Origin: Archangium violaceum | GTDB taxonomy: Bacteria; Myxococcota; Myxococcia; Myxococcales; Myxococcaceae | DNA: 64,000 nucleotides | Direction: 5' to 3' | Assembly: GCF_016887565.1 (NCBI RefSeq) | Contig: NZ_CP069396.1 | Coordinates: 2,259,001 to 2,323,000, forward strand | Shown here: positions 3,450 to 20,367 of the stretch, piece by piece | How positions within the stretch are numbered: position 1 is the stretch's first letter | How the letters are laid out: every line of letters begins with the position of its first letter | Translations under genes and position numbers: made by a program | Notes under the pieces: generated by a model | Database searches by the model: none | The model's input: only the letters and a program-made list of their open reading frames with translations | What the model was told of the DNA's origin: nothing

Positions 3450-6400
3450 CTACGGCCGAGGGGCGAATGGCGCACAGACGCGCACGCCAATGAGGACGTC
3501 ACGCTGGGTCGGATCGCCCGCCGTGCGGTTGGCGACGCGGGCGCCAAACTGGTCGTAGTACCAGGCGCCTCCACGCAGGACGATGCGGCCGAGGTCCGCC
3601 GTCGCCGGCCTTGTCAGCTCGAACGCGTTGCCCGCCATGTCGAGCAGACCGAAGGGACTCGCCGAGGCCGGATGGGCGCCGACCTCGTCGGGTCCGAAGG
3701 ACCTCCGCCCGTACGTCACATCGATGTTGACGTCGTCGGGCTCCAGTCGGTCGCCATGAGGGTAGGTGCGGCCGTCGGCGCCCCGGGCGGCGCGCTCCCA
3801 TTCGCGCTCACTGCACAGGCGCGCCCCGGGCAGCCGCCCGGACTGGTCGAGCCAGTAGAAGTACCCCTGGAGGTCATCGGCCGAGACGCCAGTCAGGGGC
3901 AGCTTGCGCCAATCCACCGTCTGTCGCTCCTCGCGGCCGGGGTAGCGGATCGGCTCCCCCTCGTGTGCTGTGAGGACGAGGTCGCTGGAGCGGCGGAAGG
4001 AAAAGGTCCAGCCTCCTCCTGGTTGCTGCCGCAGGGTGACGGCGCCGGCGGTGCTGAAATGTGGCTGCTCGAGGACGCGCCGGGCCTCGGCCCCGGGGGG
4101 CAGCGTGTCGAGGTAGTCCAGCCAGTCCTGGAACGTCACCTCCCTGCGCCCGATGAGGTACCCCTCGCCGAAGCAGACGCGGTGCAGCGGCGCGGCGGTC
4201 ATGAAGAGCCGAACCTGCTCCGGGTCGGCGCTGCCCAGCAGGAAGCAGCCGGGAGGAATGTAGACATGGCCCTCGGGCACGGCCTCGGGGAGCACGAGGT
4301 GAAGCCGCTCGCGCCCGCCGCGCGTGAGCAGCAGGGGCAGGTCGACGGGTGCACGGCCAGGACGCGTCACGCGCAGGTGATAGGAGCCCGCGGGGAGCGA
4401 CGCGGGGGAGAGGGGCGTGGGACCGAGCTCGCTGACGGGCTCGCGGCGCAGCACCCCCTGGGCGTCGCTGACGTAGCGCTCGATGGCGACCTTCGCGCCA
4501 GGGGGCTCGGTCACCAGCTCGAGCTCGGCTGGGGCCGACACCCGCTGCCGCCACTGCGCTCCATCCCTGGCATCTTCGATCAGGTGCTCCAGGCGCTGTC
4601 GCAGCTCCTCCTGCGCACCTTGCCGGTGGAAGCTCTCGGCGAGCAGCAGGCGCTCATAGGTGGCCTCCAGAAGCAACTGGCGCGCCTGGCCCTGAGCGCG
4701 CCCGCGCTCAAGCGCCCGCTCCAGGGCGCGGGTGGCGCGAGCATAGGCACCCTCCGCCTGTGTGAGCAGGGCGAGTGTCTCACTCCAACGTTGCTCGGCG
4801 GTGGGCCGGGAGTACTGGGAACCCGGTGCCGCGGCCAGGGGTGAGGAGGCAATGGGCTGTTCGTCGAACTGCGCGAGTGCCTCCTCCCGGCGTGCTTGCA
4901 CCTGCGCCCCGAGGGTACGGCCCATGGCGAGCGCCTCCCGTGCCTCCTGGAGACGCTCGGAGACGAAGCTCACGTCGGCCAGGTACTCCCTCAGGCGGAG
5001 GGCGCCATAGATGACGGCGGGCGCGAGCAGTACCAGCAACAGGACCAGGCGCCGTCCCCAGCGCTGGCGCCTCGCGGCGCGGGAGGAGGCGAGCAGGAAG
5101 GCCCGCTCGCGCCCCCCCAGCGTGGAGGCGTCCAGCGGGTGGGCCTCGTCGAGCTGACGCTGGCCCCACAGCGCCTCCCGGGGACGCGACAGGCGCTCCC
5201 ATTCGGCGCTCGCCGCCTCGATGCGCTGGCGCACCGCGCGGTGGCCGATGTCGTTGTCGAGCCAGTTGCGCAGCGTGCCCCAGCGGGTGAGGAGCGAGTC
5301 GTGGGCGATTTGATACCGGGCCTCGCCCGCCGCGGTGCTCGCGTGCAGCAGCCGGCCCTCGACGAGCACGCGCAGGGCGGCGCTGGTGGCCGCGTCCTCC
5401 GCCGTGCCGAGCTCCCGCTCACCCCGCTCTCCGCGCGTGCCCTCGGCCGTCACCAGCCGCAGCAGCAGCCGCCGTGCCGCCTGCAGCCCGGCCGGATCGA
5501 GGCGCGCGAGCACCCCGTCCGCGTGCCGCGACAGCGCTCCGGCCACCCCGCCCATCTCCTCGAGGGCCGTCCGGGTGATGCGGCCGTGCACCGGATCGTG
5601 CCGCCGCCAGAGCTCGGTGAGCGCGAACTGGAGCAGCGGCAGGCTGCCCGCGCCCTGCGCCGTGGACGAAATGAGTGTCTGGATGAGCTCGTCGGACTCG
5701 AAGACGACGCCCTGGCCACGAGCGGGGCCGACGATGGCCTCGCGCATGCCCTCGGCGCTCAGCGGCCGCAGGATGTAGAGTCCCCGCTCGGCCTCGTCGC
5801 CCAGCCCTGGCAGTGCGCACACGCGTGTGAGGAAGTCGCCGCGCACCGCCAGCAACACGCGCACCCCGGCGGAGGGCAGGGCCAGCTCGCCCAGCAGCAG
5901 GGCGAAGCGCTCCGCCTGCTCGGGCTCGGCCAGGGTGATGAGCTCCTCGAGCTGGTCGATGAACAGCAGGAGCGCGCGCCGGCCCTCGTGCGCCTCGCGC
6001 AGCGCCTGCCCGAAGCCGGTGGGAGTGGAGGAGAATGCCTCGAAGAGCTCGGCCTCCTTGCGACGCAGCAGGGGCGCGAGCGCGGCGGCCAGGGACTGCA
6101 GCGGGCGGCGGCCGGGGCAGAGCGTCACCGTGGTGCACTCGCGGCCCTGGTCCAGCTCGCCGAGGGCCACCCGGGGTAGCACGCCAGCGCGGCACAGCGA
6201 GGACTTGCCCACCCCGGAGTCCCCGGCGACGAGTACCAGGGACTGGCGCTGGAGGCGCTCGAGCAGGGCGCGGATGTCGTCGTCGCGTCCGAAGAAGAGC
6301 GCCCGGTGGTTGGCCTCGAAGGGGGCGAGGCCGCGGTAGGGATTGCCGGTGGCCAGGGGCGCGGACGCGTTGTCCTTCTCCAGCCGCTCCAGCAACTCGC

Positions 6401-7508
6401 AGATCCGTTCGGCCGAGGCGAAGCGCTCGGAGGGGTCGGGCGCCAGGCACTGGTGGATGAGCGCGGCGAAGTCCGGATCCATGCCCTCGGCGAGCCCGGC
6501 CGGTACAGGGGCGTCGTGCGGCTCCTGGGCGGGAGCCCGGCGGCTGAGGCGGGCGAGCAGCTCCTCCTGGGCGCGTGGCAGCCGGTCCGTGCACAGCTCA
6601 TGGAGCACGAGGCCCAGGGAATAGATGTCACTGCGAGGCGTGGCCGAATCGCCGCTCAGGAGCTCGGGGGCCATGTAGCGCGGCGTGCCCGCGAAGAGCG
6701 GTTCGCCCGAGCGCAGCGAGTCGGCGCTACGGTCGAAGCGCTCGGCCAGGCCGAAGTCGAGCAGCTTCACGTCGCTCTGCTCGGTGACGAGGGCGTTGGA
6801 AGGTTTGATGTCGCGGTGCAGCACCCCGTGGCGATGCGCCGCCGCCAGCCCCCGGGCCAGGCCGAGCCCCAGCGTGAGCACCCGCCGCCAGGGCACCGGT
6901 CGGGGCAGCTTCGCCAGGCTCTGACCAACGACATACTCGGAGACGATGTACGCGTGCCCCTCGATTTCACCGACGCGGAAGACGGTGACGACATTGGGAT
7001 GCTGCAGGCGGGCGATGGCGCGGGCCTCGGCCTCGAAGTGCGCGCGGACCTGGGGGGAGGGGTGCTCGGAGGCGATGAACTTCACCGCCACGAGCCGCTC
7101 CAGGGAGGTGTCCTGCGCCAGGTAGACGACGCCCATGCCGCCTCGGCCGATGGGGCGCATGAGGCAGAACTCGTCGAACCGGGAGGGAGGAAACCAGGGA
7201 TTGCTGTCTGGCGGCGCTCCACCGGGCGCGGTGCTGCCGCCCGGATCCGCTCTCTCCATCGTGGAGGTGCTGTCGTCCAGGGGTTGCTTCTTCGCCTCGG
7301 GGGGAACGCCTTGCACCGCCAGGCCGCCGCGCGCGACCGTGGCGAGCAGGGCACGGCAATCATTGCACTGGGCGGCGTGGCGATGGGCGCGCGCCAGCTG
7401 CTCTTCCGGCAGCCGGCCCTCCATCAGCTCCACCATCAGCTCGTCGGTGAGGCAGTCGCCCTTGTCGGGTCCGGCCTTGGGTGAGTCTTTCGGTCTCACG
7501 GAGCTCAT
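3450..7508 (-). CDS. Multidomain Ser/Thr kinase: zinc anti-sigma-like motif, kinase, STAND NTPase, PEGA and FGE-sulfatase domains
   Basis: 1352 residues. Order: (1) residues 19-51 carry Cys19, His44, Cys48 and Cys51 in the H-X3-C-X2-C arrangement of zinc-binding anti-sigma domains. (2) Kinase, about 111-385: GRGGMGVVY, Lys143, GVLHRDIKPSN, LLDFGL and APELL, so all catalytic motifs are intact. (3) nSTAND1-type NTPase, about 395-800: NPYRGLAPFEA, Walker A GDSGVGKSS, Walker B LLLFIDQLEEL. (4) One membrane segment, LVLLLVLLAPAVIYGAL, near 850. (5) A PEGA-like segment (ELVTEPPGAKVAI). (6) C-terminal formylglycine-generating-enzyme/SUMF1-like domain (PLTGVSADDLQGYFYWL, LLDMAGNAFEL, LRGGAWYY). Such domains in kinases often serve as binding modules; the catalytic cysteine pair of true FGE is not evident. 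It is divergent, 85 bases away, from a sigma-like gene, suggesting it senses a signal and controls that factor. No clear ribosome binding site precedes the ATG. Confidence 0.85.
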   Translation of the reverse strand: MSSVRPKDSPKAGPDKGDCLTDELMVELMEGRLPEEQLARAHRHAAQCNDCRALLATVARGGLAVQGVPPEAKKQPLDDSTSTMERADPGGSTAPGGAPPDSNPWFPPSRFDEFCLMRPIGRGGMGVVYLAQDTSLERLVAVKFIASEHPSPQVRAHFEAEARAIARLQHPNVVTVFRVGEIEGHAYIVSEYVVGQSLAKLPRPVPWRRVLTLGLGLARGLAAAHRHGVLHRDIKPSNALVTEQSDVKLLDFGLAERFDRSADSLRSGEPLFAGTPRYMAPELLSGDSATPRSDIYSLGLVLHELCTDRLPRAQEELLARLSRRAPAQEPHDAPVPAGLAEGMDPDFAALIHQCLAPDPSERFASAERICELLERLEKDNASAPLATGNPYRGLAPFEANHRALFFGRDDDIRALLERLQRQSLVLVAGDSGVGKSSLCRAGVLPRVALGELDQGRECTTVTLCPGRRPLQSLAAALAPLLRRKEAELFEAFSSTPTGFGQALREAHEGRRALLLFIDQLEELITLAEPEQAERFALLLGELALPSAGVRVLLAVRGDFLTRVCALPGLGDEAERGLYILRPLSAEGMREAIVGPARGQGVVFESDELIQTLISSTAQGAGSLPLLQFALTELWRRHDPVHGRITRTALEEMGGVAGALSRHADGVLARLDPAGLQAARRLLLRLVTAEGTRGERGERELGTAEDAATSAALRVLVEGRLLHASTAAGEARYQIAHDSLLTRWGTLRNWLDNDIGHRAVRQRIEAASAEWERLSRPREALWGQRQLDEAHPLDASTLGGRERAFLLASSRAARRQRWGRRLVLLLVLLAPAVIYGALRLREYLADVSFVSERLQEAREALAMGRTLGAQVQARREEALAQFDEQPIASSPLAAAPGSQYSRPTAEQRWSETLALLTQAEGAYARATRALERALERGRAQGQARQLLLEATYERLLLAESFHRQGAQEELRQRLEHLIEDARDGAQWRQRVSAPAELELVTEPPGAKVAIERYVSDAQGVLRREPVSELGPTPLSPASLPAGSYHLRVTRPGRAPVDLPLLLTRGGRERLHLVLPEAVPEGHVYIPPGCFLLGSADPEQVRLFMTAAPLHRVCFGEGYLIGRREVTFQDWLDYLDTLPPGAEARRVLEQPHFSTAGAVTLRQQPGGGWTFSFRRSSDLVLTAHEGEPIRYPGREERQTVDWRKLPLTGVSADDLQGYFYWLDQSGRLPGARLCSEREWERAARGADGRTYPHGDRLEPDDVNIDVTYGRRSFGPDEVGAHPASASPFGLLDMAGNAFELTRPATADLGRIVLRGGAWYYDQFGARVANRTAGDPTQRDVLIGVRVCAPFAPRP

Positions 7509-7593
7509 CGACGTGGATTCCGGTGAGGACTCAAGGGTTGTTCAGCGGGACCCGGCTCATGGTGCGGCGAGACGGGATGCTAGGCTGTGGATC

Positions 7594-8514
7594 ATGACAC
7601 AGCCGTCGGAACTGGTCGCCACGTTTCTCGCCCACACGGGAGGGCGCCTCGAGGCATCCGCGGAGGCCGACGCACTGGAGGGCCTGCTGCGCCGCGTGTG
7701 GGAGGATGCCCGCGCCCAGTGGCCAGAGGTGGAGCTGCCCGCCGAGAGGTTCATCCGACACCTGGCCGAGCGGCTGCCGGAGGCGGGTTCCGACGGGCAG
7801 ATCGGGCCTCGGCTCGAACAACTGTCCTTGCCAGAACTCTATCTCGCGTGTGCGTGTGTGCAGGGGATTGCCGAGGCTACCGTGGCCTTTGATAGACACT
7901 ACCTGTCGAGGTTGCCAGGGCTGCTTGGATACTTGAGGCAGCCAGCGGCAATCATCGACGAGGTCTGTCAGCTGACGCGGGTGAAGCTCCTGGTCCACAC
8001 CCCCGAGGGGGCGCCCCGGCTCAATGACTACACGGGCCAGGGTTCGTTGTTGAGCTGGGTGCGAATCACCGCGGTGCGCATTGCCCTCAGGGTGTGTGGC
8101 TTGGACAAGCCCGCGCCTGACGAGGGCGTGGTGGAGGTGCTCGAGTCGCTACCAGCGCCGGGAGATGTGGAGTTGGACCTCATCCGGCGGCGCCATCACG
8201 CCGAGTTCCGCCAGGCTGTCCGCGAGGCTTTCGCCGCGCTGTCGATGGATGAGCGGCACCTGTTGCGGCTCCATGTCGTGGACCAGCTGTCGACGGTCGA
8301 GCTGGGAGCGCTGTTTCGCGTGAACCAGTCCACGGTCTCTCGCTGGTTGAAGAGTGTGCGGCAGACGGTCTTCAACGAGACCCGGCGTCGGCTGCAGGCG
8401 CGGCTGGGGCTTTCCGCGCGAGACTTCCAGAGCTTCCTGGGCGCTCTGGACAGCCAGCTCGAGCTGGGCATCAGCCTGATTTTCGGCGAGGAGGACGCGC
8501 AGGCCCGCAAGTGA
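7594..8514 (+). CDS. Sigma-70 family-like transcription factor paired with divergent kinase
   Basis: 306 residues from the ATG at 7594. In-frame codons extend upstream but run into the divergent kinase gene, so this start is preferred. The middle carries a segment resembling sigma region 2 (TGQGSLLSWVRITAVRIAL), and the C-terminal third is a sigma region-4-like helix-turn-helix: ALSMDERHLLRLHVVDQLST followed by VELGALFRVNQSTVSRWLKS. The long N-terminal half is alpha-helical without a recognised domain. Proteins of this form usually neighbour Ser/Thr kinases in myxobacteria, as here. Promoter targets are unknown; the regulatory link to the kinase is inferred from its anti-sigma-like zinc motif. 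Confidence 0.75.
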   Translation: MTQPSELVATFLAHTGGRLEASAEADALEGLLRRVWEDARAQWPEVELPAERFIRHLAERLPEAGSDGQIGPRLEQLSLPELYLACACVQGIAEATVAFDRHYLSRLPGLLGYLRQPAAIIDEVCQLTRVKLLVHTPEGAPRLNDYTGQGSLLSWVRITAVRIALRVCGLDKPAPDEGVVEVLESLPAPGDVELDLIRRRHHAEFRQAVREAFAALSMDERHLLRLHVVDQLSTVELGALFRVNQSTVSRWLKSVRQTVFNETRRRLQARLGLSARDFQSFLGALDSQLELGISLIFGEEDAQARK

Positions 8515-8611
8515 GCTCCGGCAGGAGAAAGTGTGGTTCACTCGGCGCGGGATGAATGGCATGCGAAGGACTTCACGAGGTCGGAGCGGCGGGATTGGAG
8601 GCGGAGAGGGC

Positions 8612-9715
8612 GTGGTGACCGTGCTCGGTCAGCGCGCGCTCAACCGGGCGTTGCTCGAGCGGCAGCTGTTGCTCCAGCGTGGGAAGCTTTCGATTCCCGC
8701 GGCCATCGAGCATCTGGTGGGCTTGCAGGCCCAGGCGCCGAATCCACCCTACGTGGGCCTCTGGACACGGTTGGAAGGCATCCGGCTCGACGCGCTGACG
8801 CGTTTGATGGAAGACCGGCGTGTGGTGCGATCGGCCCTGATGCGCGGGACGCTGCATCTGGTCACCGCGCGTGACTTCCTGAAGTTGCGCCCGGTGCTGC
8901 AGCCGGTCCTGGAGCGTCTTCACAACGGAGCCTACGGTCGTCGGTTCGAGGGTCTGGATGCCCACGAGGTAGCGGCCGTGGGCCGGGAGTTGCTCGAGGA
9001 ACAGCCGCGCACCAGCGCGGAACTGGGCAAGCTGCTGCGCGCGAGGTGGCCCGGCCGTGATGCGGCTGTGCTCGCCAGCGCTGTCCGCAACCTCCAGCCG
9101 CTCATCCACGTGCCGCCCGCCGGTACCTGGGACTCCCACAAGCCCGCAGCCCTCATTCCGGCGGAGAGCTGGCTGGGCCGCGCTCTCGAGCCCGCGTCCT
9201 CGCTGGATTCACTGATCAAGCGCTATCTGGCCGCGTTCGGTCCGGCCACGGTCCAGGACGTGCAGACCTGGTCTGGCCTGGTGGGTGCGCGCGACGCCAT
9301 GGAGCGGCTGCGGCCGCGACTGCGAACCTTCCGGGACGAGCACGGTCAGGAGTTGTTCGACGTGCCCGACGCCGCACTTCCCGATCCGGACACGGAAGTT
9401 GCGCCCCGCTTCCTTCCCGAGTTCGACAACGTCTTGCTGTCATACGCGGATCGCTCCCGCATCCTCTCGGAGGAGGCTCGTGCGCGGGTCTTCACCAAGA
9501 ATGGTCTGGTGCGGTCCACCATCCTGGTGGACGGCTTCGTCCGCGGAATCTGGCGGATCCACCGCGACCGGGACATCGCGACCCTTCACATCCAGCCTTT
9601 TGAAAGGCTGTCCAAGCAGACCCGTAGCGCTTTGAACGACGAGGGAGCACGGCTGCTCGACTTCGCCGCCAGCGATGCGGAGCGCCACGACGTGCGGTTC
9701 GACCCTTTGGAGTAG
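8612..9715 (+). CDS. Winged-helix DNA-binding protein, AlkZ-like (HTH_42) family
   Basis: 367 residues from GTG 8612; GTG 8615 is equally possible. Both sit 5-8 bases after GGAGAGGG, which is why these starts are preferred over in-frame codons back to 8531. The sequence matches the winged-helix family containing the DNA glycosylases AlkZ and YcaQ: an N-terminal segment HLVGLQAQAPNPPYVGLWTR, RSALMRGTLHLV, and a C-terminal PRFLPEFDNVLLSYADRSR followed by VDGFVRGIWRI. Some members excise bulky or crosslinked bases; many are uncharacterised. It converges with lanB, with 12 bases between stop codons. An association with the RiPP cluster, for example self-protection from a DNA-damaging product, is possible but unsupported. 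Confidence 0.75.
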   Translation: MVTVLGQRALNRALLERQLLLQRGKLSIPAAIEHLVGLQAQAPNPPYVGLWTRLEGIRLDALTRLMEDRRVVRSALMRGTLHLVTARDFLKLRPVLQPVLERLHNGAYGRRFEGLDAHEVAAVGRELLEEQPRTSAELGKLLRARWPGRDAAVLASAVRNLQPLIHVPPAGTWDSHKPAALIPAESWLGRALEPASSLDSLIKRYLAAFGPATVQDVQTWSGLVGARDAMERLRPRLRTFRDEHGQELFDVPDAALPDPDTEVAPRFLPEFDNVLLSYADRSRILSEEARARVFTKNGLVRSTILVDGFVRGIWRIHRDRDIATLHIQPFERLSKQTRSALNDEGARLLDFAASDAERHDVRFDPLE

Positions 9716-9727
9716 GCCGGCCCCGGC

Positions 9728-12700
9728 TCAATCGTTCGACGTCACCATCCGGGCTCCACGGGCCATGCGCGAGGCGTATAGGCGGGAGAGGAAGTCGTAG
9801 AAGACGAGCTCCTCCCGTGTCCCCGCCGCGCGCAGGAGGCGATTCGTCTGCATATGGGCGAAGACGGCCGCCAGCTCGGGAATGCGCACGCCCAGCCGGC
9901 CTGAGCTCTCCGCCTCGTGGAGCGCCGCGGCGATGGGGGCCAGCCGCTCGGAGCGGTGGCGGAGGATGTCCATCGCGGGCGTGAGCGGATGCGATTCGAG
10001 GGGGCCGGGCGCGAAGAGGGGCTCGAGCTCCGCGCGCTCCTGGCGGTAACGGGCGCCGAGCTGGTGCTCCAGTGAGGTCTTGGGACGGAGCTGCTTCCAG
10101 AGGCCCGCTCGAAGGTCTCGGGCCAGCTCGCCGCGTGCGGCCAGGTCGAGCCCGAGCGACTCCCAGAGCGCATCAATGGCTCTCAACGCGAGCCGCCAGC
10201 GCCACGGCGAGCTCACGGCTCCTCCCAGGCTGGAGAGGAGTGCCAGCACCGACTCGCTGTCGATCTGGAAGATTTGCTCGGCGAGGAGGATGCCCGTCTC
10301 GCCGCCGTAGCGCTCCACCTCACGCTGGTAGGTATCGAGCTGCACGCGCCAGATCCGGCCATCGGCGAGCAGCGGCGCGGTGGCCTCGTGGAGCGCGGGC
10401 AGCAGCTCGCCCAGGAGCCGCCGGGGCTCTCCGTGGAAGCGCAGGCGCAGGTGCCACTCGGGGTCCCGGTAGCGGATGAAGAACCAGCCATCGGCCGCGC
10501 CGGAGTCCAGGGTGTTCTCCACCAGTGGCGCCACCACGGTGCGCAGGACGCGGTCCGCGGTGACCGGGCCGCAGGAGAGCTTCACGTAGAGCCACTCCGA
10601 GCCGGGAGGAAACTGGCGCGGGAGGTTGGAGGCGGGAGTCCGGGCTGGAACCGACACCTCACGGGCGGTCCGGGCGGGCTCCTGCGTGCGCACGAACGGA
10701 ATGACGAGCTCGTGGGCGAAGCGCCCTTCCGGCCCCTGGACGGGGAGCGCATCCGGCCCGGGGAACAGCTCGACCAGCCGTGCCTGACGCAGGCCCCTGG
10801 CCCGCTGGGCGAATGCCTCGATGCTCAGGAGATTGTCGAGATCGACGGGAAGGCGCTGGTCGTTCTCCTCGAGTGCGACGTACCGGGGGAGCCGTAGCCG
10901 TTCGCGCAGCGCCTGGACGGCTCGGAAGAGGGGCTCGCCGCTCGTGGAGCCCAACATGTGCAGTGTCTGCTCCGGCAGCCACCAGCGCGCCAGGGAGAGG
11001 ACGAGCCGCCCCGAGACGACCCTCGGGAGGTATGGCGCGCCCTCCAATGGCCCCCAGCGCCAGCGGAGGTTGGCGGCCACCCCCTGCCCCTGCAACGCGC
11101 CCAGGAACCGGTAGACCGGGAGGCCTCGTTTGACGTTGTGCGTGGTGGTGAGACGCGGAAGGACCTCGCGGCCCAGCCTCGCGGAGCGGAGGACCACCCG
11201 ATCTCCGACCACGGACACGAGCAGCTCGCCGAGCGGAATCTGTTGCTCGGGCGGCGCACCGGAGCGGCCGAGGAACGGAATCTCGTGCTCACGCAGCAGG
11301 GGCCGGAGGAGGACGTTGCCCACGTGCCCCTCCGGGAGGTGGGCGAGCTCCGCGTGGAGGGCCTCGGGATGATGGGCTTCCTCGGCCCGGAGCAGCGCCC
11401 GGACGTGGTCGGCCAGGCCCGCATCGGCATGGCAGAAGCGGGCGAGCACGTTGGCTCCCGAGGGTCCGTTCACCGAGTGCACACAGAGCTGGAACTCCCC
11501 GCCATCCAACGCGGCCTCGGAGGCGGCGGCGAGCGTGGCCGCCATGGAGAAGGCCGCGGGCAGCGGCAGCCGCTCCTTCTGCTCCAGTGCCTGGAGGTCC
11601 TCGGGTTCCAACACCAGCGCGGACGCACCCGAGCGCAGGACGTCATGGAGCTTGCGCTGGAGGAAGGTGTGACGCTCCTCCCAGGGCATGGTGGGGCTCG
11701 CGTCCTCCGGGTCCAGCTCCAACCCCGATAGCAGCGGCGCGGCCTCGACGGCTGGGGCCTCTCCATCGTCCGGGAATCCAATGCCGGACTCCGCGTCGAG
11801 CACCTCCAGGAGGGGCACCTCGCGCCGCTCGTAGCGCTCGCGAAAGGCCGTGCGAAAGCGCAGCAGGGCGTCTTCCTGGCGAGGGGAGATGCGGTGCAGG
11901 AGCTCGACGGCCGCGAGCGCCTCCTCGAGGACCCTCGGGCCCAGCCTTGCCTCCCGCACCGGCTTCACCAGGTCCACCTGGAACACGGGCTGCCCGCCCG
12001 TGGGCGCTGGCAGGGCTTCCAGCGGCCTCGTGGCGGCGTGATACCGCGCGGGCGGGACACCGAGCCCTTCCCGGTCGAGGGCTTCCAGTGCCACGCGGGC
12101 CTCTTCGAGGACGGCCGCCGCGTCGATGCCGGATTCGAGCGGTGGTCCGCCCCGGAGCTCTCGCACGAGCGCCAGAGCCGGATCGATGCCAGTCACCGGC
12201 GGCTCGAGGTCTGGCACCAGCACCTGGCTGTCGATGAGCTTGTCGATGAACTGCTCCGCGTCCTCCAGCTCGATGTCGGGATCGTGCGCGGTGAGGGCCT
12301 CGGCGAGCGCGCCGCGAAGCACTCCGTGCCGGGCCTTCTCCAGCGCGAGCTCAAGGTACTCCGAGGGCGTCAGGGAAGTAGCGCGATAGGCGCGCCCCTC
12401 CTGTCCCGATGTGCTCGGGAGCACCTCGGAGAAGCGGAGCTGGCCAGCGGCGCGGTACAGGCTCGAGTTGGGCCGCCAGATGAGGCGCTCCCGCCGTGCT
12501 GGCTCCCGCGCGAATGACTCGGAGAGCACCACGAGCAGGCCCATGTCGAGCCGCGTCCGGCGCTGGTAGTCGGTGAGCCCGGCGAGCGAGAGCCGCGTGT
12601 CGGCTCCCACCCTTCCGCTCGAGCTGCCGCTGAAGAGGCCGAAGGGCGTCGCCCGGGCCGCCATGCGCTGGACGTAGCGCACCAGGGCGCGCTCCACCTG

Positions 12701-12991
12701 GAGGCCGGACCTGCTGTCCGCCGCCTCGCGCCAGCGCGCCAGGTGCGCCTCCAGGCCGGGAGAGGCGACGAAGAGCGCTTCACGCACCTCGGGCCGGTCC
12801 ACGAGTGCCGCGAGCCGCGCGCGCAGCAGGGCCCTGTCCGCGGCCAGTGCATCCCCCAGCCGTCCCGGCTCGGCGAGCGCCCTCACGCCGGAGAGTCCCT
12901 CTCCCCAGCGCACCAGCTCGTCGAAGGGGAGCAGGGGCGTCCGGAGAACGAAGAAGCCCGCGGGCCGGGCGGAAGCGGAGGCGTTCCTCAT
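9728..12991 (-). CDS. lanB: Class I lanthipeptide dehydratase (LanB), full length
   Basis: 1087 residues from ATG 12991. The N-terminal glutamylation domain starts with FFVLRTPLLPFDELVRW and contains the family signature RYVQRMAARATPFGLFSG. The C-terminal elimination domain (SpaB_C/thiopeptide type) starts near residue 800 with WLYVKLSCGPVTADRVL and continues RYRDPEWHLRLRFHG. Such enzymes transfer glutamate from Glu-tRNA to Ser/Thr of a precursor and then eliminate it to give dehydroalanine or dehydrobutyrine. Both domains sit in one chain of typical LanB length, so this is not a split thiopeptide-type dehydratase. The ATG overlaps the lanC stop by 4 bases (ATGA). It is the last gene of the leftward operon. 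Confidence 0.93.
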   Translation of the reverse strand: MRNASASARPAGFFVLRTPLLPFDELVRWGEGLSGVRALAEPGRLGDALAADRALLRARLAALVDRPEVREALFVASPGLEAHLARWREAADSRSGLQVERALVRYVQRMAARATPFGLFSGSSSGRVGADTRLSLAGLTDYQRRTRLDMGLLVVLSESFAREPARRERLIWRPNSSLYRAAGQLRFSEVLPSTSGQEGRAYRATSLTPSEYLELALEKARHGVLRGALAEALTAHDPDIELEDAEQFIDKLIDSQVLVPDLEPPVTGIDPALALVRELRGGPPLESGIDAAAVLEEARVALEALDREGLGVPPARYHAATRPLEALPAPTGGQPVFQVDLVKPVREARLGPRVLEEALAAVELLHRISPRQEDALLRFRTAFRERYERREVPLLEVLDAESGIGFPDDGEAPAVEAAPLLSGLELDPEDASPTMPWEERHTFLQRKLHDVLRSGASALVLEPEDLQALEQKERLPLPAAFSMAATLAAASEAALDGGEFQLCVHSVNGPSGANVLARFCHADAGLADHVRALLRAEEAHHPEALHAELAHLPEGHVGNVLLRPLLREHEIPFLGRSGAPPEQQIPLGELLVSVVGDRVVLRSARLGREVLPRLTTTHNVKRGLPVYRFLGALQGQGVAANLRWRWGPLEGAPYLPRVVSGRLVLSLARWWLPEQTLHMLGSTSGEPLFRAVQALRERLRLPRYVALEENDQRLPVDLDNLLSIEAFAQRARGLRQARLVELFPGPDALPVQGPEGRFAHELVIPFVRTQEPARTAREVSVPARTPASNLPRQFPPGSEWLYVKLSCGPVTADRVLRTVVAPLVENTLDSGAADGWFFIRYRDPEWHLRLRFHGEPRRLLGELLPALHEATAPLLADGRIWRVQLDTYQREVERYGGETGILLAEQIFQIDSESVLALLSSLGGAVSSPWRWRLALRAIDALWESLGLDLAARGELARDLRAGLWKQLRPKTSLEHQLGARYRQERAELEPLFAPGPLESHPLTPAMDILRHRSERLAPIAAALHEAESSGRLGVRIPELAAVFAHMQTNRLLRAAGTREELVFYDFLSRLYASRMARGARMVTSND

Positions 12992-14178
12992 GGAATGTCC
13001 ATCAGCAGCAGCCTGTCCCATTCGGGCTCCAGCGGCGTGACGGCCGAGAGCAGGGCCAGCCCGATGCCCGTGGTCCCCGTCAGCAGGCGCTCTTCCCGCG
13101 GCACCTCGGGTCCGCACAGGTCGAGCGCCCGGTCGAACCAGGCCCACGCCGCATCGAGGAACAAGGCCTCGTCCGTGGCCTGGTACAGGCGGTTGTAGAG
13201 GTGTCCCAATCCGGCCGCGCCATGGCAGAGGAACGCATCGACGACGCCGGTCTTCTCGGGAGCGAGGGTGGCGGCACGGCGGGCTCCCGCGAGCGCCGCT
13301 TCCTCCCAGGAGGACTCCCCCAGGTGGCGCGCGGCCATCAGCAGCGTGACGGCGATGCCGGGGTTCCCGTAGCACCAGGCGCTGCGCGCGGGCTCGCGGG
13401 GCGCTCCAGGTGCGAGGAGGGCCGGAAAGCCACCGGGTGCCTCTTCCTCCGAGAGGCGCCGCGCGAGCAGCCAGCGCACGCACCCTTCCAGCAACTGACG
13501 CCCTTCCTCACCGCCCACGCCGAAGCTCCGCGCCCGCGCCAGGAAGCCGATGACTCCCGGCACCCCATGCGCGACCCCGAGATCCTGACACCCCTCCGGG
13601 TAGCGTGACTGGCGCTCGGGCGCGAGCAGCTGGGGTGGCGTCCGGAAGCTCCATCCCTCTGGCTGGGGCTCGGCGAGTGCACGCAGGTGCTCGAACACCC
13701 GCTGCACCAGGGCGTGCCCCTGGGGACGCCGGTGCCGCTCGAGGCCGTAGACGCCCAGGCCGACGAGGCCGGAGATGAGATCGTACTTCCGCTCCCAGCG
13801 CGGCACGGCGAGCGTCTCCAGCAGCACGCCGTCGATGTTCGCGTTGAGGTCCACCTCCTGGGATTCCCGCCCCCAGGTGTGTTCCACCACCCAGGCCACG
13901 CCGGTGAGCCCCTCGTGGAGCGCCGGGCCCAGGCCGGCCGAGCGGAGCGCGTCGATGGCCTCGTCGAGGCACGCATTCCGCCGCTCCTCGTGGCCCTCGT
14001 CCGGGAAGGCGCGTGCGAGGTAGTGCCACCACAGGGCCTGCTGGCTCCTCACGACGCAGGTGGCGGAGAGAGCGCGGTCCTCGGGCGCCGGGGCGTCGAA
14101 CGCCTCGGCCACGGCCCGGAGAAAGGCCAGGGCCCGCTCAGCCCGCGTGCCCTCGAGGATGGGCGCCCACTGCTTCAC
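12988..14178 (-). CDS. lanC: Lanthipeptide cyclase (LanC)
   Basis: 396 residues from GTG 14178, which overlaps the TGA of the radical SAM gene (GTGA). In-frame codons extend to 14232, but the overlap favours this start. Zinc ligands of the LanC family are visible: Cys269 in SAWCYGNPG and Cys318-His319 in FLCHGAAG, with the conserved AHGVPG (His204) upstream. The repeating GxxG-type helices of the alpha/alpha toroid are present, including LISGLVGLGVYGL and TGTTGIGLALL. LanC activates a cysteine thiol for addition to dehydrated Ser/Thr, forming lanthionine rings. Its length is normal for the family. The ATGA overlap with lanB suggests the two enzymes are made in step. Confidence 0.93.
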   Translation of the reverse strand: MKQWAPILEGTRAERALAFLRAVAEAFDAPAPEDRALSATCVVRSQQALWWHYLARAFPDEGHEERRNACLDEAIDALRSAGLGPALHEGLTGVAWVVEHTWGRESQEVDLNANIDGVLLETLAVPRWERKYDLISGLVGLGVYGLERHRRPQGHALVQRVFEHLRALAEPQPEGWSFRTPPQLLAPERQSRYPEGCQDLGVAHGVPGVIGFLARARSFGVGGEEGRQLLEGCVRWLLARRLSEEEAPGGFPALLAPGAPREPARSAWCYGNPGIAVTLLMAARHLGESSWEEAALAGARRAATLAPEKTGVVDAFLCHGAAGLGHLYNRLYQATDEALFLDAAWAWFDRALDLCGPEVPREERLLTGTTGIGLALLSAVTPLEPEWDRLLLMDIP

Positions 14179-15428
14179 GCCACGGAGCGCTTGGGCTCGG
14201 GCACCGGCCAGGCTTCCCACCCGGCGGGCCATTGCACTCGGTCGTAGGTGAAGTGCAGGTCATCGCCCTCGGGCCAGGGCGCGTCCACCGGCTCCTCCAC
14301 GAGGCGGAGCACTCCATGGTCGAACGGCTGGCCGGGAGCGGGGACGTCGCGCACCACCCGCTCGCGCACCCCGCGCCGCGCCTGCTCGAGCGTGCGGGAG
14401 TGGCAGTACGGGTTGTTGCCGCGCCGGTTGAAGAGGACGCTGGCCATCTGGCTGCATCCGCCCCGGCACACCTCGGCATAGCGGCAGCTTCCGCAGAAGC
14501 CCCACATATGGGCGGCGCCCTCGTCCGTGCCGGCGGTGGTGTTGAAGGTCAGCTCGCGCGACTGGAGGATCTCACTGAGCGGCTGCTTGCGGATGTTGCC
14601 GCCGATGTACTCCGCCGGCAGGGTGGGGCACCCCTTGATGGAGCCGTCGGCGTGGATGCCCAGCACGGAGATGCCGGCCATGCAGCCCGTCCAGATCTGC
14701 CCCGGGCTCTTGGCGAAGATGGCGTCGTCGTACGGCCCGAAGTAGCCGATGTCGTTGGCCGGCTGCACCGAGATGACGCCCTCCGCCTGCGCGCGCAGGG
14801 CCACCCGCGCCAGCGTCCGGTAGAAGGCATCCAGCTCGGCCGGCTGGAGCAGCATCCAGATGTTGTCCCCGCCGTTGCCCATGGCCGAGGTGAGTTGGAT
14901 CTGCCAGCCCTTCACCCCCGCGTCCCGCAGGCGCTCGTAGAGCTGGGGCAGCTCCGGCGCGGACAAGCGGTTCACCTGGGTGTTGGCCGTGTACAGCAGG
15001 CCCGCGTCGCGGAAGTGACGGAAGCTCTGGAAGCAGAAGAAGAACGAGCCGTCCCGGCCGCGGATCCGATCGTGCGTCGCCTGCAACCCATCCACGGAGA
15101 CGGACACCTGGTTGATGCCCGCCTCCTTCATCTTGCGCGCCGTTTCGCGCGAGATGCCGTAACCGCCCGTGGTCATCGAGCAGGTCATCCCATGGGAGGT
15201 GATGGCCTGCGCGATCTGCAACCAATCGGGTCTCAGGAAGGCCTCACCGCCCTCGATGGTCACCTCGGTGATACCGACCTCGGCGAGCTGCCGCGCCAGG
15301 TCCAGCGCTTCGTCCGTCGTCAGCTCGTTCTCCCGTTGGCTCCCCGCTCGCGAACCACAGTGGTTGCAGGCGAGGTTGCACTTGAGGGTCAGCTCCCACA
15401 CTGCATACGCCGTACGACGGCGTCGCAT
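14175..15428 (-). CDS. Radical SAM/SPASM peptide-modifying enzyme
   Basis: 417 residues from ATG 15428; an in-frame TTG at 15473 would add 15 residues, and neither has a strong ribosome binding site. The radical SAM motif CNLACNHC (CX3CX2C) lies about 17 residues from the ATG, followed by EGGEAFLRPDW. The C-terminal SPASM region is rich in cysteine: GCMAGISVLGIHADG, KGCPT, CGSCRYAEVCRGGC and NPYCHSRT, which would hold auxiliary Fe-S clusters. SPASM enzymes modify ribosomal peptides by thioether or carbon-carbon crosslinking, epimerisation or related radical chemistry. It lies between the precursor and lanC in the same operon, so the precursor at 15521-15718 is the likely substrate. The exact reaction cannot be read from the sequence. 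Confidence 0.9.
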   Translation of the reverse strand: MRRRRTAYAVWELTLKCNLACNHCGSRAGSQRENELTTDEALDLARQLAEVGITEVTIEGGEAFLRPDWLQIAQAITSHGMTCSMTTGGYGISRETARKMKEAGINQVSVSVDGLQATHDRIRGRDGSFFFCFQSFRHFRDAGLLYTANTQVNRLSAPELPQLYERLRDAGVKGWQIQLTSAMGNGGDNIWMLLQPAELDAFYRTLARVALRAQAEGVISVQPANDIGYFGPYDDAIFAKSPGQIWTGCMAGISVLGIHADGSIKGCPTLPAEYIGGNIRKQPLSEILQSRELTFNTTAGTDEGAAHMWGFCGSCRYAEVCRGGCSQMASVLFNRRGNNPYCHSRTLEQARRGVRERVVRDVPAPGQPFDHGVLRLVEEPVDAPWPEGDDLHFTYDRVQWPAGWEAWPVPEPKRSVA

Positions 15429-15520
15429 GGGAGTGGGTTCGGGCTGTGAGGCGCTGGTCTCTGGAGGTGCCAAGGTCGTGAAGTGGCGGAGGGCGGTTCA
15501 GGACAGCCCGTACGGAGGGC

Positions 15521-15718
15521 CTACTTGGTAGTGGGCGTCTTGGTGGGCGAGGAGGGGTTGCACTCGAGCTCGGTCGGGGGCAGGCCGTAACGTGCCGCAC
15601 CGCCGCGAACCGTCTCGAGGGACTCCTTGTCCAGGTCCAGCAGCTTGCGGGCGCGCTCCTTCTGACGCTCCACCACCTCGGTCCGCGGGAACACCGGCTT
15701 CTTCTCGGTCTTGTTCAT
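15521..15718 (-). CDS. lanA: Putative lanthipeptide precursor with double-glycine-type leader
   Basis: 65 residues; ATG 15718 with AGGAG about 10 bases upstream. Residues 1-40 are a charged, helical leader containing LLDLDKESLETVRGG, which resembles the LxLxKExL...GG pattern of RiPP leaders, ending at Gly39-Gly40. The 25-residue putative core has Thr49, one cysteine (Cys53), Ser56, Ser57, Thr59, Thr61, Thr63 and Thr64, and is rich in Pro and Lys. LanB could dehydrate the Ser/Thr residues. With a single Cys only one lanthionine-type ring can form, leaving several dehydrated residues or radical SAM modifications. It is first in the operon, 92 bases before the radical SAM start. The call rests on position, leader form and composition; no specific known peptide is recognised. 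Confidence 0.8.
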   Translation of the reverse strand: MNKTEKKPVFPRTEVVERQKERARKLLDLDKESLETVRGGAARYGLPPTELECNPSSPTKTPTTK

Positions 15719-15747
15719 CTGCCGCTCTCCTGTGTGAAAGGGGGATG

Positions 15748-15780
15748 CTCAGCGTACGCGTCGACTTCTCGCTGAGTCAA
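15748..15780 (-). promoter_or_regulatory. Candidate RiPP operon promoter with inverted-repeat operator
   Basis: On the minus strand TTGACT (15780-15775) and TACGCT (15756-15751) are 18 bases apart, a fair match to -35 and a weak match to -10, about 30 bases before the precursor ATG. A perfect 7-base inverted repeat (CTCAGCG at 15748-15754, CGCTGAG at 15770-15776, 15-base spacer) overlaps both elements, as an operator would. It is a sequence match only. Confidence 0.4.
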
Positions 15781-15809
15781 ACCCACCTAATCAGAACTCA
15801 GGGCAAGGC

Positions 15810-15829
15810 GGGGCCCCCCACGAGGCCCC
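15810..15829 (-). terminator. Hairpin after trpA, possible terminator
   Basis: GGGGCC (15810-15815) pairs with GGCCCC (15824-15829) around an 8-base loop, 12 bases beyond the trpA stop. No T-run follows, so termination may be partial and trp transcripts could read into the RiPP genes. Confidence 0.35.
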
Positions 15830-15841
15830 ACCCGGCACGGC

Positions 15842-16633
15842 TCAGCGCTTCAATCCGCGCTTGATGTCAGCGCACACCTGACGGGCCGCGGCGGGCCCAT
15901 CGGCCTGTGCGGCACGGACGATGGCGCTGCCCACCACCACGCCATCGGCGTGGGCGCCCACCACCCGGGCCTGCTCGGCGTTGGAGATGCCGAAGCCGGC
16001 GACCACGGGCACGGGCGACAGGCGCCGCACCAGCTCCAGCCGCTCGGAGAGGTTGGCCGGCAGCTCCGAGCGCATGCCCGTCACGCCCGCCACCGACACG
16101 CAGTAGACGAAGCCCCGCGCGTCCTTCGCGATGGACTCGGCCCGGGTCGGCGACGTGGTGGGAGCGCACAGCGGGATGAGCTCCAACCCTTCCTTGTCGA
16201 AGGCGACGCGGATGCCCGTGCTCTCCTCGGGCGGCAGGTCCGGCAGGATGGTGCCCGACACGCCGCGCTCCCGGGCCAGCTTCGCGTAGCGCTCCTCGCC
16301 CATGGCCATGACGACGTTGACGTACGTCATCACCACCAGCGGCGTCTGGGGGCAGCGCGCGCGCACCGCGGGCACCACCTCGTCCAGCACCCGCTTGAGC
16401 GTGGAGCCCGCCTTCAGGGCCCGCTCGGACGCGCCCTGGATGACGGGACCGTCGGCGATGGGGTCGCTGAACGCCACGCCAATCTCCAGGATGTCCGCGC
16501 CACCCTCCACGCACGCGGCGAACACGTCCACCGAGCCGGGAAGGTCCGGGTCCCCCGCCATGGCGTACGCCACCAGCGCGCCCTCACCGCGGGCCCTGGC
16601 CCGGGCGAACGCTTCCGCGATCTCCCCGCTCAT
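15842..16633 (-). CDS. trpA: Tryptophan synthase alpha subunit
   Basis: 263 residues from ATG 16633, which overlaps the trpB stop (ATGA). It cleaves indole-3-glycerol phosphate to indole and glyceraldehyde 3-phosphate and passes indole to TrpB. Visible features are the catalytic Glu in [20 protein letters not shown], the catalytic Asp in [11 protein letters not shown], the loop around [12 protein letters not shown], and the phosphate-binding VVAGFGISN and GVVVGSAIV. Length is normal (about 265). It is the last gene of the trpDCFBA run. Confidence 0.97.
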
Positions 16634-17838
16634 GCTCCCTCCTGACCGATGGCGGCGGGAATCCCGCGCGCCGCGATGGTGGCCACGTCCTTGTCGCCGC
16701 GGCCCGAGCAGTTGACGACCAGGTGCTTGCCCTTGCCCAGCTCGCGCGCCAGGTCCCCCGCGCGCGCGAAGGCGTGCGAGGACTCCAGCGCGGGCAGGAT
16801 GCCCTCGGTGCGGGACACCAGATAGAAGGCCTTCAGGGCCTCCTCGTCCGTGGCGGTACGCACCTCGAGCCGGCCCGTCTTCGCCAGGTACGCCAGCTCC
16901 GGCCCCACGCCCGGGTAGTCCAGGCCCGCGGAGATGGAGTGCGCCTCGATGATCTGCCCGTTCTCGTCCTGCAGCACCAGCGAGCGCGAGCCGTGCAGCA
17001 CGCCCTCGGTCCCCAGCGTCAGGGACGCGCCGTGCTGGCCCGAGTCCAGGCCGTGGCCACCGGCCTCCACGCCCACCAGCCGCACCTGCTTGTCCTCGAC
17101 GAAGGGGTGGAGCGCTCCAATGGCGTTCGAGCCTCCGCCGATGCACGCGATGACGGCGTCCGGCAGCCTGCCGAAGGCCACCAGCGACTGCGTGCGGATC
17201 TCCCGGCCGATGACGGCCTGGAAGTCGCGGACGATGGTGGGGTAGGGGTGCGGACCGGCCGCGCTGCCGATGACGTAGTAGGTGTCCTCCACCTGCGACA
17301 CCCAGATGCGCATGGCCTCGTTCATCGCGTCCTTGAGGGTGCGCGAGCCCGACTCCACCGGGTGCACCTTGGCCCCCAGGGCCTTCATGCGGAAGACGTT
17401 GAGCGACTGGCGCTCCACATCCACCGCGCCCATGAAGACCTCGCAGGGCAGGCCGAACAGGGCGCACGCGGTGGCGGTGGCCACGCCGTGCTGGCCCGCG
17501 CCCGTCTCCGCGATGATGCGCTTCTTGCCCATCCGCTTGGCCAGCAGCACCTGGCCGATGGTGTTGTTGATTTTGTGGGCGCCCGTGTGCGCGAGGTCCT
17601 CCCGCTTGAGCCACACCTCGGCGCCACGCCACAGCTCGGTGAGCCGGCGCGCGGGCGTCAGCGGCGTCTCGCGCCCGACGTACTCGCGCAGCACCTGCGA
17701 CACCTGCTCGTCGAAGGCTGGATCCTTCCGGGCCTCGGCATACGCCTGCTCCAACTCCAGCAGCGCCGGGACCAGCGTCTCCGGCACATAGCGGCCGCCA
17801 TAACGCCCGAAGCGGCCAGGGGCGGTTTGCGTTTCCAT
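16630..17838 (-). CDS. trpB: Tryptophan synthase beta subunit
   Basis: 402 residues from ATG 17838 ([20 protein letters not shown]). PLP enzyme that condenses indole with serine to give tryptophan. The PLP lysine lies in [15 protein letters not shown], followed by [13 protein letters not shown] and the PLP phosphate loop IGGGSNAIG. This is the TrpB1 type that partners TrpA, and all motifs are intact. It begins 8 bases after trpF and overlaps trpA by 4 bases. Confidence 0.97.
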
Positions 17839-17846
17839 GGTTCGTG

Positions 17847-18482
17847 TCACTCCCAAAGCGCGGTCTTCGCGGCGCGTACGAAGGCACGCACCGCGTCCGC
17901 ATCCTTGATGCCGGGGCTGACTTCCACCCCGCTCGCCACATCCACGCCGTAGGGCCGGGTGGCCCGCACGGCCTCTCTCACATTGTCCGGGTTGAGCCCG
18001 CCGGCCACCAGCACCGGCACGCCCGCGTCCGCGAGCCGTGCCACCAGCGACCAGTCGAACCCCACGCCGCCGCCGCCGTAGCCCGGCGCCGCTCCGTCCA
18101 GCAGCAGCGCCGCCACGTCGCCCGCTCCCACGTAGGTGCGGGCCTTCTCCACGTCCTCGGGGCCGCGCACCCGCATCGCCTTGATGACCGGCACGCCGTA
18201 GCCCGCGCAGGCCTCGGGCGGCTCGTCCCCGTGCAGCTGCACCGCCGTCAGCCCGCACTCGCGCACCCGCGCGCGGATGACGTCCGGTGACTCGTTGACG
18301 AACACGCCCACCACCGAGCCCAGCGCCGGCCGCGTGCGCGCCAGCTCCGCCGCCACCTCCGCCGTCACGTACCGGGGCGAGCGCGGGTAGAAGTTGAGCC
18401 CCAGCGCGTCCGCGCCCTCGGCCCACGCCCGCCGCGCGTCCTCCACGCGGGTGACGCCGCAGATTTTGACCCGAGTGCTCAC
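17847..18482 (-). CDS. trpF: Phosphoribosylanthranilate isomerase
   Basis: 211 residues from GTG 18482, which overlaps the trpC stop (GTGA). Catalyses the Amadori rearrangement of phosphoribosylanthranilate to CdRP. The catalytic Cys is in VKICGVTR and the catalytic Asp in [19 protein letters not shown] and GVDVASGVE are the phosphate-binding segments. It is a separate gene rather than the TrpC-TrpF fusion of enteric bacteria. Confidence 0.96.
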
Positions 18483-19354
18483 GGCGCACCCGCGAGCAGC
18501 CGCGCCAGGGCCCGGCCCGGCTCGGCGTCGCGCAGCAGGGACTCGCCCACCAGCACCGCGTCGGCTCCCGCGGCCCGTGCCGCCGCGAAGTCCTCGCGTG
18601 TCTTGAGGCCGCTCTCCGCCACCAGCGCCTTCGCCCGGCTGCGCAGCGTGGGAATCACCCGGAGCGCCGTGGAGACGTCCGTGCGCAGCGTGGCGAGGTT
18701 CCGGTTGTTGATGCCCACCAGCTCCGCGCCCGCCTTCAGCGCGCGCTCGGCGTGCTCCTGCGTGTGGGCCTCCACCAGCGCCGCCACCCGGCACGCCTTC
18801 GCCGCGGCCACCATCTCCGCCAGCGGCCCGTCCTCCAGCGCGTCCGCGATGAGCAGCACCGCGTCCGCGCCCATGGCCGCGCTCTCCTCCACCTCCTGCG
18901 GGGCCACCAGGAAGTCCTTGCGCAGGACTGGCAACGAGATGGCCGCTCGCACCTGGAGCAGATCGTCGAGGCAGCCCCCGAAGTCCACGTCGTCGGTGAG
19001 CACGCTGATGGCGCTCGCTCCGGCCGCCTCGTACGCCCTCGCCACCGCCACCAGGTCCTGGTGCGGGAAGTTGCCGCCCGAGGGGCTGCGGCGTTTCACC
19101 TCGGCGATGACGTTGACTGGCAGGTCGGGCCGGTGCCGGGTGAGGGCCGCCGCGAAGTCTCGGGACGGCGGACGGGGCGTGTTGGCCACCAGGCGCTTGC
19201 GCGCGGCGAGCTCCCGGCGCTTGCGCGCGAAGATGGCGGCCAGCTTGTCGGACTCGGGGCCCGAGGTACCCTCACCCCGTCCCTCTCCCGGAGGGAGAGG
19301 GGAAGTGGGCGTGTTAGGGGAAGGGGGCGTGCCAGGGGAAGTGGGCTTGCTCAT
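18479..19354 (-). CDS. trpC: Indole-3-glycerol phosphate synthase with repeat-derived N-terminal extension
   Basis: 291 residues from ATG 19354, which overlaps the trpD stop (ATGA). Catalytic features: [43 protein letters not shown] and VAESGL. It closes the indole ring of CdRP to give indole-3-glycerol phosphate. Oddity: residues of about 1-35 form a Thr/Ser/Pro-rich segment ending [11 protein letters not shown], where a 36-base REP-like element (19268-19303) is read in frame. Typical TrpC enzymes start near the following [13 protein letters not shown]. The ATGA overlap marks the ATG as the real start, so the element appears to have been inserted into the gene and kept as coding sequence. 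Confidence 0.95.
19268..19303 (-). repeat. REP-like palindromic repeat inside trpC
   Basis: A 36-base element starting ACCCTCACCCCGTCCCTCTC on the plus strand, with an inner palindrome CCCTCTCCC/GGAGGGAGAGGG. It is identical to 22778-22813 and closely related to the copies at 21974 and 63149-63230. Confidence 0.85.
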
Positions 19355-20367
19355 GTCGTGCCTCCCTTCACCAGGGCCTGCAGTTTTGCCGCCGCCGTGC
19401 CGGAGTCGATGGCCTCCACCGCTTGTTGCACGCCCTCCTTGAGGTTCGTCGCCCGGCCCACCACCACCAGCGCCGCCGCCGCGTTGAGCAGCACCGCCGT
19501 GCGCACCCCGGAGCGCTCTCCGGCCAACAGCGCCTTGAAGCGCCGGGCGTTGTCCTCCACGTCCCCTCCGACGATGGCCTCGGGCGGCACCCGCTCCAGC
19601 CCCGCGTCCTCCGGGGTGAGGGAGAAGCGCCGCACCGAGCCGTCCTCGCGCAGCTCCGCCACGTCCGTGGTCGTGCACGGGGAGATTTCGTCCAGCCCAT
19701 CCTGGCCGTGCACCACCCAGGCCCGCTTGCTGCCCAGCCTGGAGAGGACGCGCGCCGTCTGCTCCAGCCGCTCGCCCGCGAAGGTGCCGAGCAGCTGGTA
19801 GCGCGCCCCCGCCGGGTTGGTCAGCGGACCCAGCAGGTTGAACACCGTGTGCAGGCCGATCTCTCGCCGCGCCGGTGCCACGTGCCGCAGGGCGCTGTGG
19901 TGCGAGGGCGCGAAGAGGAAGCCCACGCCGTGCTCGTCCACGTCACGCGTCACCTGCTCGTGCGTCCGGTCCATGCCCACGCCCAGCGCGGCCAGCACGT
20001 CCGAGCTGCCGCACCGCGAGGACACCGCGCGGTTGCCATGCTTGGCCACCGTCACCCCCGCGCCCGCGGCCACGAAGGCCACGGCCGTGGAGATGTTGAA
20101 GGTGTGCGCCCCATCGCCACCGGTGCCGCAGGTGTCCAGCACCACCTCGGCCCTGGGATGGATGCGCGTGGCGCAGGCCCGCATGGCCTCCGCCGCGCCG
20201 AGGATCTCCTCCTCGGTCTCTCCCTTCATGCGCAACGCGACCGCGAAGGCGCCCACCTGGGCAGGCGTCGCCTCTCCCGCGAGCATCAGGCCCATGATCT
20301 GGACCATCTCCTCGCGAGTCAGATCGCGCCGGCCCACCACCCTGCTCAGCGCTTCCTTGAGCGTCAT
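19351..20367 (-). CDS. trpD: Anthranilate phosphoribosyltransferase
   Basis: 338 residues from ATG 20367. Transfers phosphoribosyl from PRPP to anthranilate. Motifs: DTCGTGGDGAHTFNIS (PRPP/anthranilate site), KHGNRAVSSRCGSSD and NLLGPLTNPAGA. No TrpG glutaminase domain is fused. It is the first complete gene of the leftward trp operon and starts 4 bases after the stop of the 41-codon DAHP synthase fragment. trpE and trpG, usually upstream of trpD, are not in this window. Confidence 0.97.
   Translation of the reverse strand: MTLKEALSRVVGRRDLTREEMVQIMGLMLAGEATPAQVGAFAVALRMKGETEEEILGAAEAMRACATRIHPRAEVVLDTCGTGGDGAHTFNISTAVAFVAAGAGVTVAKHGNRAVSSRCGSSDVLAALGVGMDRTHEQVTRDVDEHGVGFLFAPSHHSALRHVAPARREIGLHTVFNLLGPLTNPAGARYQLLGTFAGERLEQTARVLSRLGSKRAWVVHGQDGLDEISPCTTTDVAELREDGSVRRFSLTPEDAGLERVPPEAIVGGDVEDNARRFKALLAGERSGVRTAVLLNAAAALVVVGRATNLKEGVQQAVEAIDSGTAAAKLQALVKGGTT

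Follow-up and report, generated by a model that had tools for sequence, protein, structure and literature searches.

Organisation of the cluster

The window, i.e. the 64,000-nucleotide stretch of Archangium violaceum DNA analysed here, lies within a single 13.2-Mb contig and carries on its minus strand four genes, which encode a short precursor peptide, a radical SAM/SPASM enzyme, a LanC cyclase and a LanB dehydratase. The features of the cluster are as follows:

15785–15845, minus strand: hairpin between trpA and the precursor gene (-33.2 kcal/mol)
15521–15718, minus strand: precursor gene (ORF), 65 residues; leader to Gly40, core AARYGLPPTELECNPSSPTKTPTTK
15683–15691, minus strand: FPR motif of the leader, which recurs in related precursors (as LPR in two of them); may form a docking helix for the splicease
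15608–15646, minus strand: leader box KLLDLDKESLETV, candidate site for LanB docking; similar to KKLxLNKETLRNL, the class I lanthipeptide leader box of related bacteria
15599–15604, minus strand: Gly-Gly, likely leader cleavage site
15584–15592, minus strand: Arg43-Tyr44-Gly45, predicted tyramine-excision site
15560–15574, minus strand: Thr49-Glu-Leu-Glu-Cys53, most likely methyllanthionine ring
14175–15428, minus strand: radical SAM/SPASM splicease, PlpX relative, 417 residues (stop at 14175, likely ATG at 15428)
12988–14178, minus strand: LanC cyclase, GTG start, 396 residues (Pfam LANC_like PF05147, E 9e-34)
9728–12991, minus strand: LanB dehydratase, glutamylation and elimination domains, 1087 residues (PF04738, E 3e-160; PF14028, E 9e-63)

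Examination of the reading frames and their Pfam domains showed that the four genes are intact, as described in the initial annotation, and also conserved in a sister species. Moreover, the coordinates confirm that the SPASM and LanC genes, and likewise the LanC and LanB genes, overlap by 4 bases, so that the three enzyme genes form one unit. The part of the precursor that follows Gly-Gly indeed contains one Cys and seven Ser/Thr residues and, again as had been reported, Pfam analysis of the nine flanking ORFs (3450–20367) revealed no transporter, protease or immunity gene. The same nine ORFs place trp genes upstream of the cluster and an AlkZ-like protein and a STAND-kinase protein downstream. 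Near the cluster, positions 3450–7508 of the minus strand encode a protein of 1352 residues that combines domains of the protein kinase, STAND NTPase and sulfatase-modifying-factor types. Trimming of the leader in trans is possible, since the genome has, at other places, six Peptidase_C39 matches that exceed the cut-off.

The hairpin 3′ of trpA lacks a T-run, has a z-score of -2.34 (2 of 200 shuffles were as good) and is kept in the sister species. The four other congeners, which lack the cluster, all carry trpA, and in each the homology extends no further than the stop codon of that gene. The suggestion that the cluster is linked to trpA by read-through is thus not well supported, and read-through as the main promoter was rejected on account of the stable hairpin and of the congeners that have trpA without the cluster. 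Scans called neither a terminator nor a promoter on the cluster strand between trpA and the precursor gene, and found no sigma-70 promoter upstream of the latter.

In the sister species (G005) the cluster is syntenic and matches at 93.5% over window positions 9724–17000. Comparison of the two species gave dN/dS values of 0.04 for the splicease, 0.23 for LanC and 0.21 for LanB, with no broken frame, and a decayed cluster was therefore rejected, as these values show purifying selection. The synteny, the low dN/dS and the unbroken frames together demonstrate that this conserved unit is more than a chance arrangement.

The radical SAM enzyme is related to PlpX

Both the Radical_SAM and SPASM domains of Pfam score over their cut-offs in the window enzyme. 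Among NCBIfam models TIGR04103 fits it best, at 620 bits and thus below the cut-off of 725, and many SPASM enzymes with different chemistry also score in that scan; TIGR04103 we take to correspond to InterPro IPR026482. A review (PMC11002830) assigns PlpX, which excises tyramine from Xaa-Tyr-Gly, to IPR026482.

As a direct test of the relation to PlpX, the PlpA2 tag IRPLYGLPI, as printed in PMC10533398, was used as a DNA pattern on cyanobacterial genomes. The tag was absent from all 291 genomes of a first draw and present in one of the 388 genomes of a second. At this locus (L200) there are genes for a Nif11-type precursor with the C-terminal sequence FPIRPLYGLPI, for a second precursor with an AVAAMYGVVFP core and for a radical SAM enzyme, as well as an epimerase-sized gene; on the tag and core matches we read the radical SAM enzyme as PlpX from Pleurocapsa sp. 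PCC 7319. The L200 enzyme scores 824 bits against TIGR04103, and its alignment with the window enzyme, over 413 residues, gives 58% identity, with all ten cluster-type Cys residues in common. The enzyme had initially been described as a SPASM radical enzyme, and a SPASM protein in the unit it is; rather than an unspecified maturase, it is a PlpX relative, and its predicted target site, Arg-Tyr-Gly, lies in the precursor. The initial annotation was to be refuted if the SPASM gene belonged to another pathway, and on this point the answer is divided: the gene does stem from a different known pathway, from which the precursor stems as well. Assignment as a sactipeptide or ranthipeptide enzyme was considered and rejected, because the cores of most relatives lack Cys.

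The precursor and its leader

The core of the window precursor begins AARYGLPP, with a single Arg-Tyr-Gly-Leu-Pro site right after Gly-Gly. It belongs to a family of short precursors with 13 significant members in 8 of the 96 genomes of the bacterial family, and all 13 precursors were read; among viral contigs, 29 pattern matches to precursor relatives yielded none that was confirmed. Over residues 1–57 the precursor is 93% identical to that of the sister species. The leader and RYGLPPTELE, including Arg43-Tyr44-Gly45, are nearly fixed between the two, and the tail varies, ECNPSSPTKTPTTK against ELCFPTGK. Thr49 and the single Cys are both kept, the latter as Cys54 in the sister species.

A core Cys is present in both precursors that lie beside LanB and LanC and in none of the other 11 family members. 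The leaders show the same division. With a score matrix built from 11 class I boxes of LanB loci, both hybrid leaders scored 11.6, the 11 related leaders without LanB scored at most 7.8, and 3 of 2599 control ORFs reached 11.6 or more. Similarly, a box like KKLVLNKETLRNL occurs in class I leaders at 12 of 20 LanB loci (15 of 1796 small ORFs) but at 1 of 31 splicease loci, where the one match among 2599 small ORFs lies on the opposite strand. The pattern was chosen after the sequences had been seen and, because the two hybrids are close relatives, their shared Cys and leader-box match count as one event; for both reasons the leader-box evidence is support and not proof. FxLD and LxLD are given as lanthipeptide leader motifs in a survey of recognition elements (PMC12710340).

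At L177 (9013–9192, plus strand) a short spliceotide precursor with SAEYGLPPP was observed. The 19 kb fetched contain no match to the splicease, and other spliceases of that genome may act on this precursor.

Candidate docking elements for the splicease were also sought. A structurally conserved helix is reportedly described for tyramine splicing in a 2024 paper. All six cyanobacterial enzymes have beside them a small LPRxxW protein, which we take to be the PlpY candidate, and in eight myxobacterial loci the same motif lies inside the precursor. No PlpY-like gene was seen beside the window enzyme; the leaders of the window family carry FPR at a position like that of LPRxxW, and might contain a PlpY equivalent in cis. 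A PlpY-helix profile did not recover the short leaders, that of the window included; when the profile was built solely on helices of cyanobacteria, L059 (E 0.005) and L181 (E 0.14) were the only ones to stand out. Downstream of the radical SAM gene in L056, L059 and L060 there is a conserved protein of ∼90–100 residues (..LSNWGYPP..VPW.N..YL.DG..); these proteins of ∼90 residues had been considered as PlpY-like and were dropped in favour of the short LPRxxW protein.

LanB and LanC

LanB comprises the Pfam domains Lant_dehydr_N and Lant_dehydr_C and was aligned with solved LanB chains (5ehk, 9g04 and NisB) through the motifs RxxxRxTPFGLF, HLRLRF and EVERYGG. Its final His aligns to NisB His961, but within a stretch that scored -2.9 bits; the residue numbers and roles of the aligned positions, including His961, are those we assume for the reference proteins. 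LanC was aligned with NisC through the AHG, RxAWCYG (WCYG) and CHG motifs, the latter two of which presumably provide the Cys-Cys-His zinc site. Both enzymes thus keep alignable catalytic residues and, to judge from these alignments, look active.

The same genome contains a separate class I cluster (L117, 4839–9500) with LanC, a LanB that is 51% identical and a precursor ending in YTRTCTRACD; this second cluster is also found in the sister species (L118).

Related splicease loci and the origin of the hybrid

Related loci were defined by a radical SAM enzyme at least 54% identical to that of the window, which gave 26 loci, six from genome contigs and 20 from searched genomes, three of them on contigs shorter than 4 kb. 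In 24 of the 26 a precursor with XYG lies nearby; the remaining two, L053 (10539–10811, minus strand) and L178 (8630–8941, plus strand), have RYA at the same place beside an intact splicease and so offer a natural test of the need for Gly.

LanC and LanB occur together, by tblastn, at only one of the 26 related loci, that of the sister species, and at one of all 49 loci tested. The LanC and LanB of the sister species are 92% identical to those of the window. LanB itself is found at E 1e-60 or better in 46 of 145 genomes of the order, the nearest apart from the sister species at 54%, and none of 20 fetched LanB loci had a splicease match within the stretch fetched. In a quick tree the two hybrid enzymes group with the ten short-precursor enzymes (support 100) as a branch of their own (99), surrounded by enzymes without LanB or LanC nearby. 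On this distribution we regard the SPASM/precursor pair as the older, widespread part and LanC-LanB as an addition. A search for the same gene order elsewhere had been proposed on the expectation of a conserved core Cys and conserved spacing to Ser/Thr: the order was found in the sister species with Cys and Thr49 kept, but the spacing differs, from Thr49 to Cys53 in one species and to Cys54 in the other.

Proposed pathway and product

The reading that we consider likely is that of a spliceotide pathway that recruited a class I LanC-LanB pair, with a product that would carry an Arg ketoamide and one methyllanthionine ring and plausibly inhibit trypsin-like proteases. In this scheme the leader would guide two systems, a PlpX-type splicease and, via a class I-type box, LanB and LanC. 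The splicease would remove tyramine at Arg43-Tyr44-Gly45, an excision that corresponds to -135 Da, LanB would dehydrate core Ser/Thr residues and LanC would link Cys53 with Dhb49; the single methyllanthionine ring so formed would lie C-terminal to the ketoamide. Remaining Ser/Thr may persist as dehydro residues, and an unlinked peptidase would cut after Gly-Gly. Arg ketoamides, as in the cyclotheonamides, bind trypsin-like proteases at the Ser of the active site. Such serine proteases are probably what the product inhibits, with the Arg ketoamide as warhead and, plausibly, the thioether ring as a brace. A review (PMC10373908) states that β-residues confer potent protease inhibition on spliceotides, and there ketoamides are described as protease inhibitors. 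The genes, their homology, the conservation of motifs, purifying selection and the fact that Cys and the leader box occur where LanB/LanC do are supported directly, and from these we infer each chemical step and the order of steps, the ring, the cleavage and the activity.

The initial annotation had proposed a hybrid product class. A hybrid is still the best reading of a unit that holds LanB, LanC, a SPASM enzyme and a one-Cys precursor, with the revision that the SPASM enzyme is a PlpX relative. On balance we also favour the view that this constitutes a natural peptide class, in which one precursor with a two-part leader would both be backbone-spliced to an Arg ketoamide and acquire a lanthionine ring. 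Its members would be ring-braced, gene-encoded ketoamide protease inhibitors, and the class would have arisen by addition of a LanC-LanB cassette to a precursor/splicease pair, the precursor gaining Cys and a class I box.

Alternatively, the splicease could act on the window precursor while LanB and LanC serve other precursors in trans, their adjacency being due to chance. The same genome does hold other LanB genes, one of them with LanC and its own Cys-rich precursor, and related splicease/precursor pairs do without LanB/LanC. However, Cys and the class I leader box are found only in the two precursors that stand beside LanB/LanC, the frames of all three enzymes overlap, and both species have retained the set, which makes this explanation unlikely. 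We hold it to be slightly less probable still that LanB dehydrates the core and that no ring is formed, or that the ring is formed to another Ser/Thr; the product would then be a dehydro-spliceotide. Seven Ser/Thr residues face a single Cys, and the ring from Thr49 would differ in size between the species (to Cys53 or Cys54); against this, LanC is intact, with its aligned motifs kept and a dN/dS of 0.23, and the single Cys is kept in both species though the tail around it is not.

The remaining alternative concerns the SPASM enzyme, which might perform another radical modification, such as a thioether to an α-carbon, an epimerization or a cross-link. Its TIGR04103 score is below the cut-off, and SPASM enzymes of differing chemistry score in the same scan. 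Sactionine-type substrates require Cys, however, which 11 of the 13 related precursors lack, and the 58% identity to PlpX extends over nearly the whole length of an enzyme whose substrate contains RYGLP. We consider such other chemistry very improbable, and retain a spliceotide pathway with recruited LanC-LanB as the preferred reading.

Comparison with known systems

The Pleurocapsa spliceotides (PlpX/PlpY/PlpA) share with the window a PlpX-type enzyme (58%) and an XYG site followed by Leu-Pro. Unlike them, the window has a short leader that is not of the Nif11 type, no separate PlpY was seen, there is one site only, the core contains Cys, and LanC and LanB lie in the same unit. Myxobacterial class I lanthipeptides have in common with it the LanC-LanB pair (nearest other LanB 54%, with a LanC of 41% at that locus) and the leader box LxLxKE(S/T)L, but all 20 fetched loci are without a splicease match, and the precursors seen have no XYG-type core comparable to that of the window. 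The same-family loci of splicease and short precursor resemble the window in leader type, YGLPP core and splicease clade; they differ in having no Cys and no LanB/LanC, and the residue before Tyr is Arg, Lys, Asp, Glu or Ile. Landornamide-type and further peptides, made by a lanthionine synthetase and a radical epimerase, also combine lanthionine with a radical enzyme, though the radical reaction is a different one. The cyclotheonamides carry an Arg ketoamide warhead like that of the proposed product, and are not known to be ribosomal.

No splicease-LanB/LanC hybrid is described in the literature searched, a scope outside which the main spliceotide surveys (Scott 2022; Richter 2024) fall, and no paper matched a search for spliceases in myxobacteria. 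The hybrid is likely, though not established, to be new to the literature. If the proposal is correct, one 65-residue substrate is shared by two of the least similar peptide-modifying machines, namely a splicease that acts on the backbone and a lanthionine synthetase. Cyclic ketoamide protease inhibitors could then be encoded by genes, with a single codon setting the side-chain of the warhead, and the cluster would represent a peptide pathway caught in the act of acquiring a second machine, the relatives without LanB/LanC being its starting state.

More distant splicease-like loci

Nineteen more distant loci (at most 52% identity) were mixed in character: L061, L062 and L063 have clear XYG proteins, several others have candidate short ORFs, and in some no XYG precursor was seen. 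The Pseudoalteromonas loci L041–L043 (51%), which fall outside the 26, have one YG-containing short ORF, in L041. Upstream of the radical SAM gene in L064, L071, L075, L077, L078 and L079 are short frames with ACYGAPA, ALYGIPCT, QPVYGIPCT or AAYGVPPC, so that in these splicease-like loci the candidate XYG sites adjoin Cys. In L061, L062 and L063, where the radical SAM enzymes are related to TIGR03913/TIGR04103, the gene upstream encodes a protein of ∼160–200 residues with two XYG sites (RPMYGVF or RPLYGVF, and AMYGVV), which raises the possibility that larger proteins are spliced.
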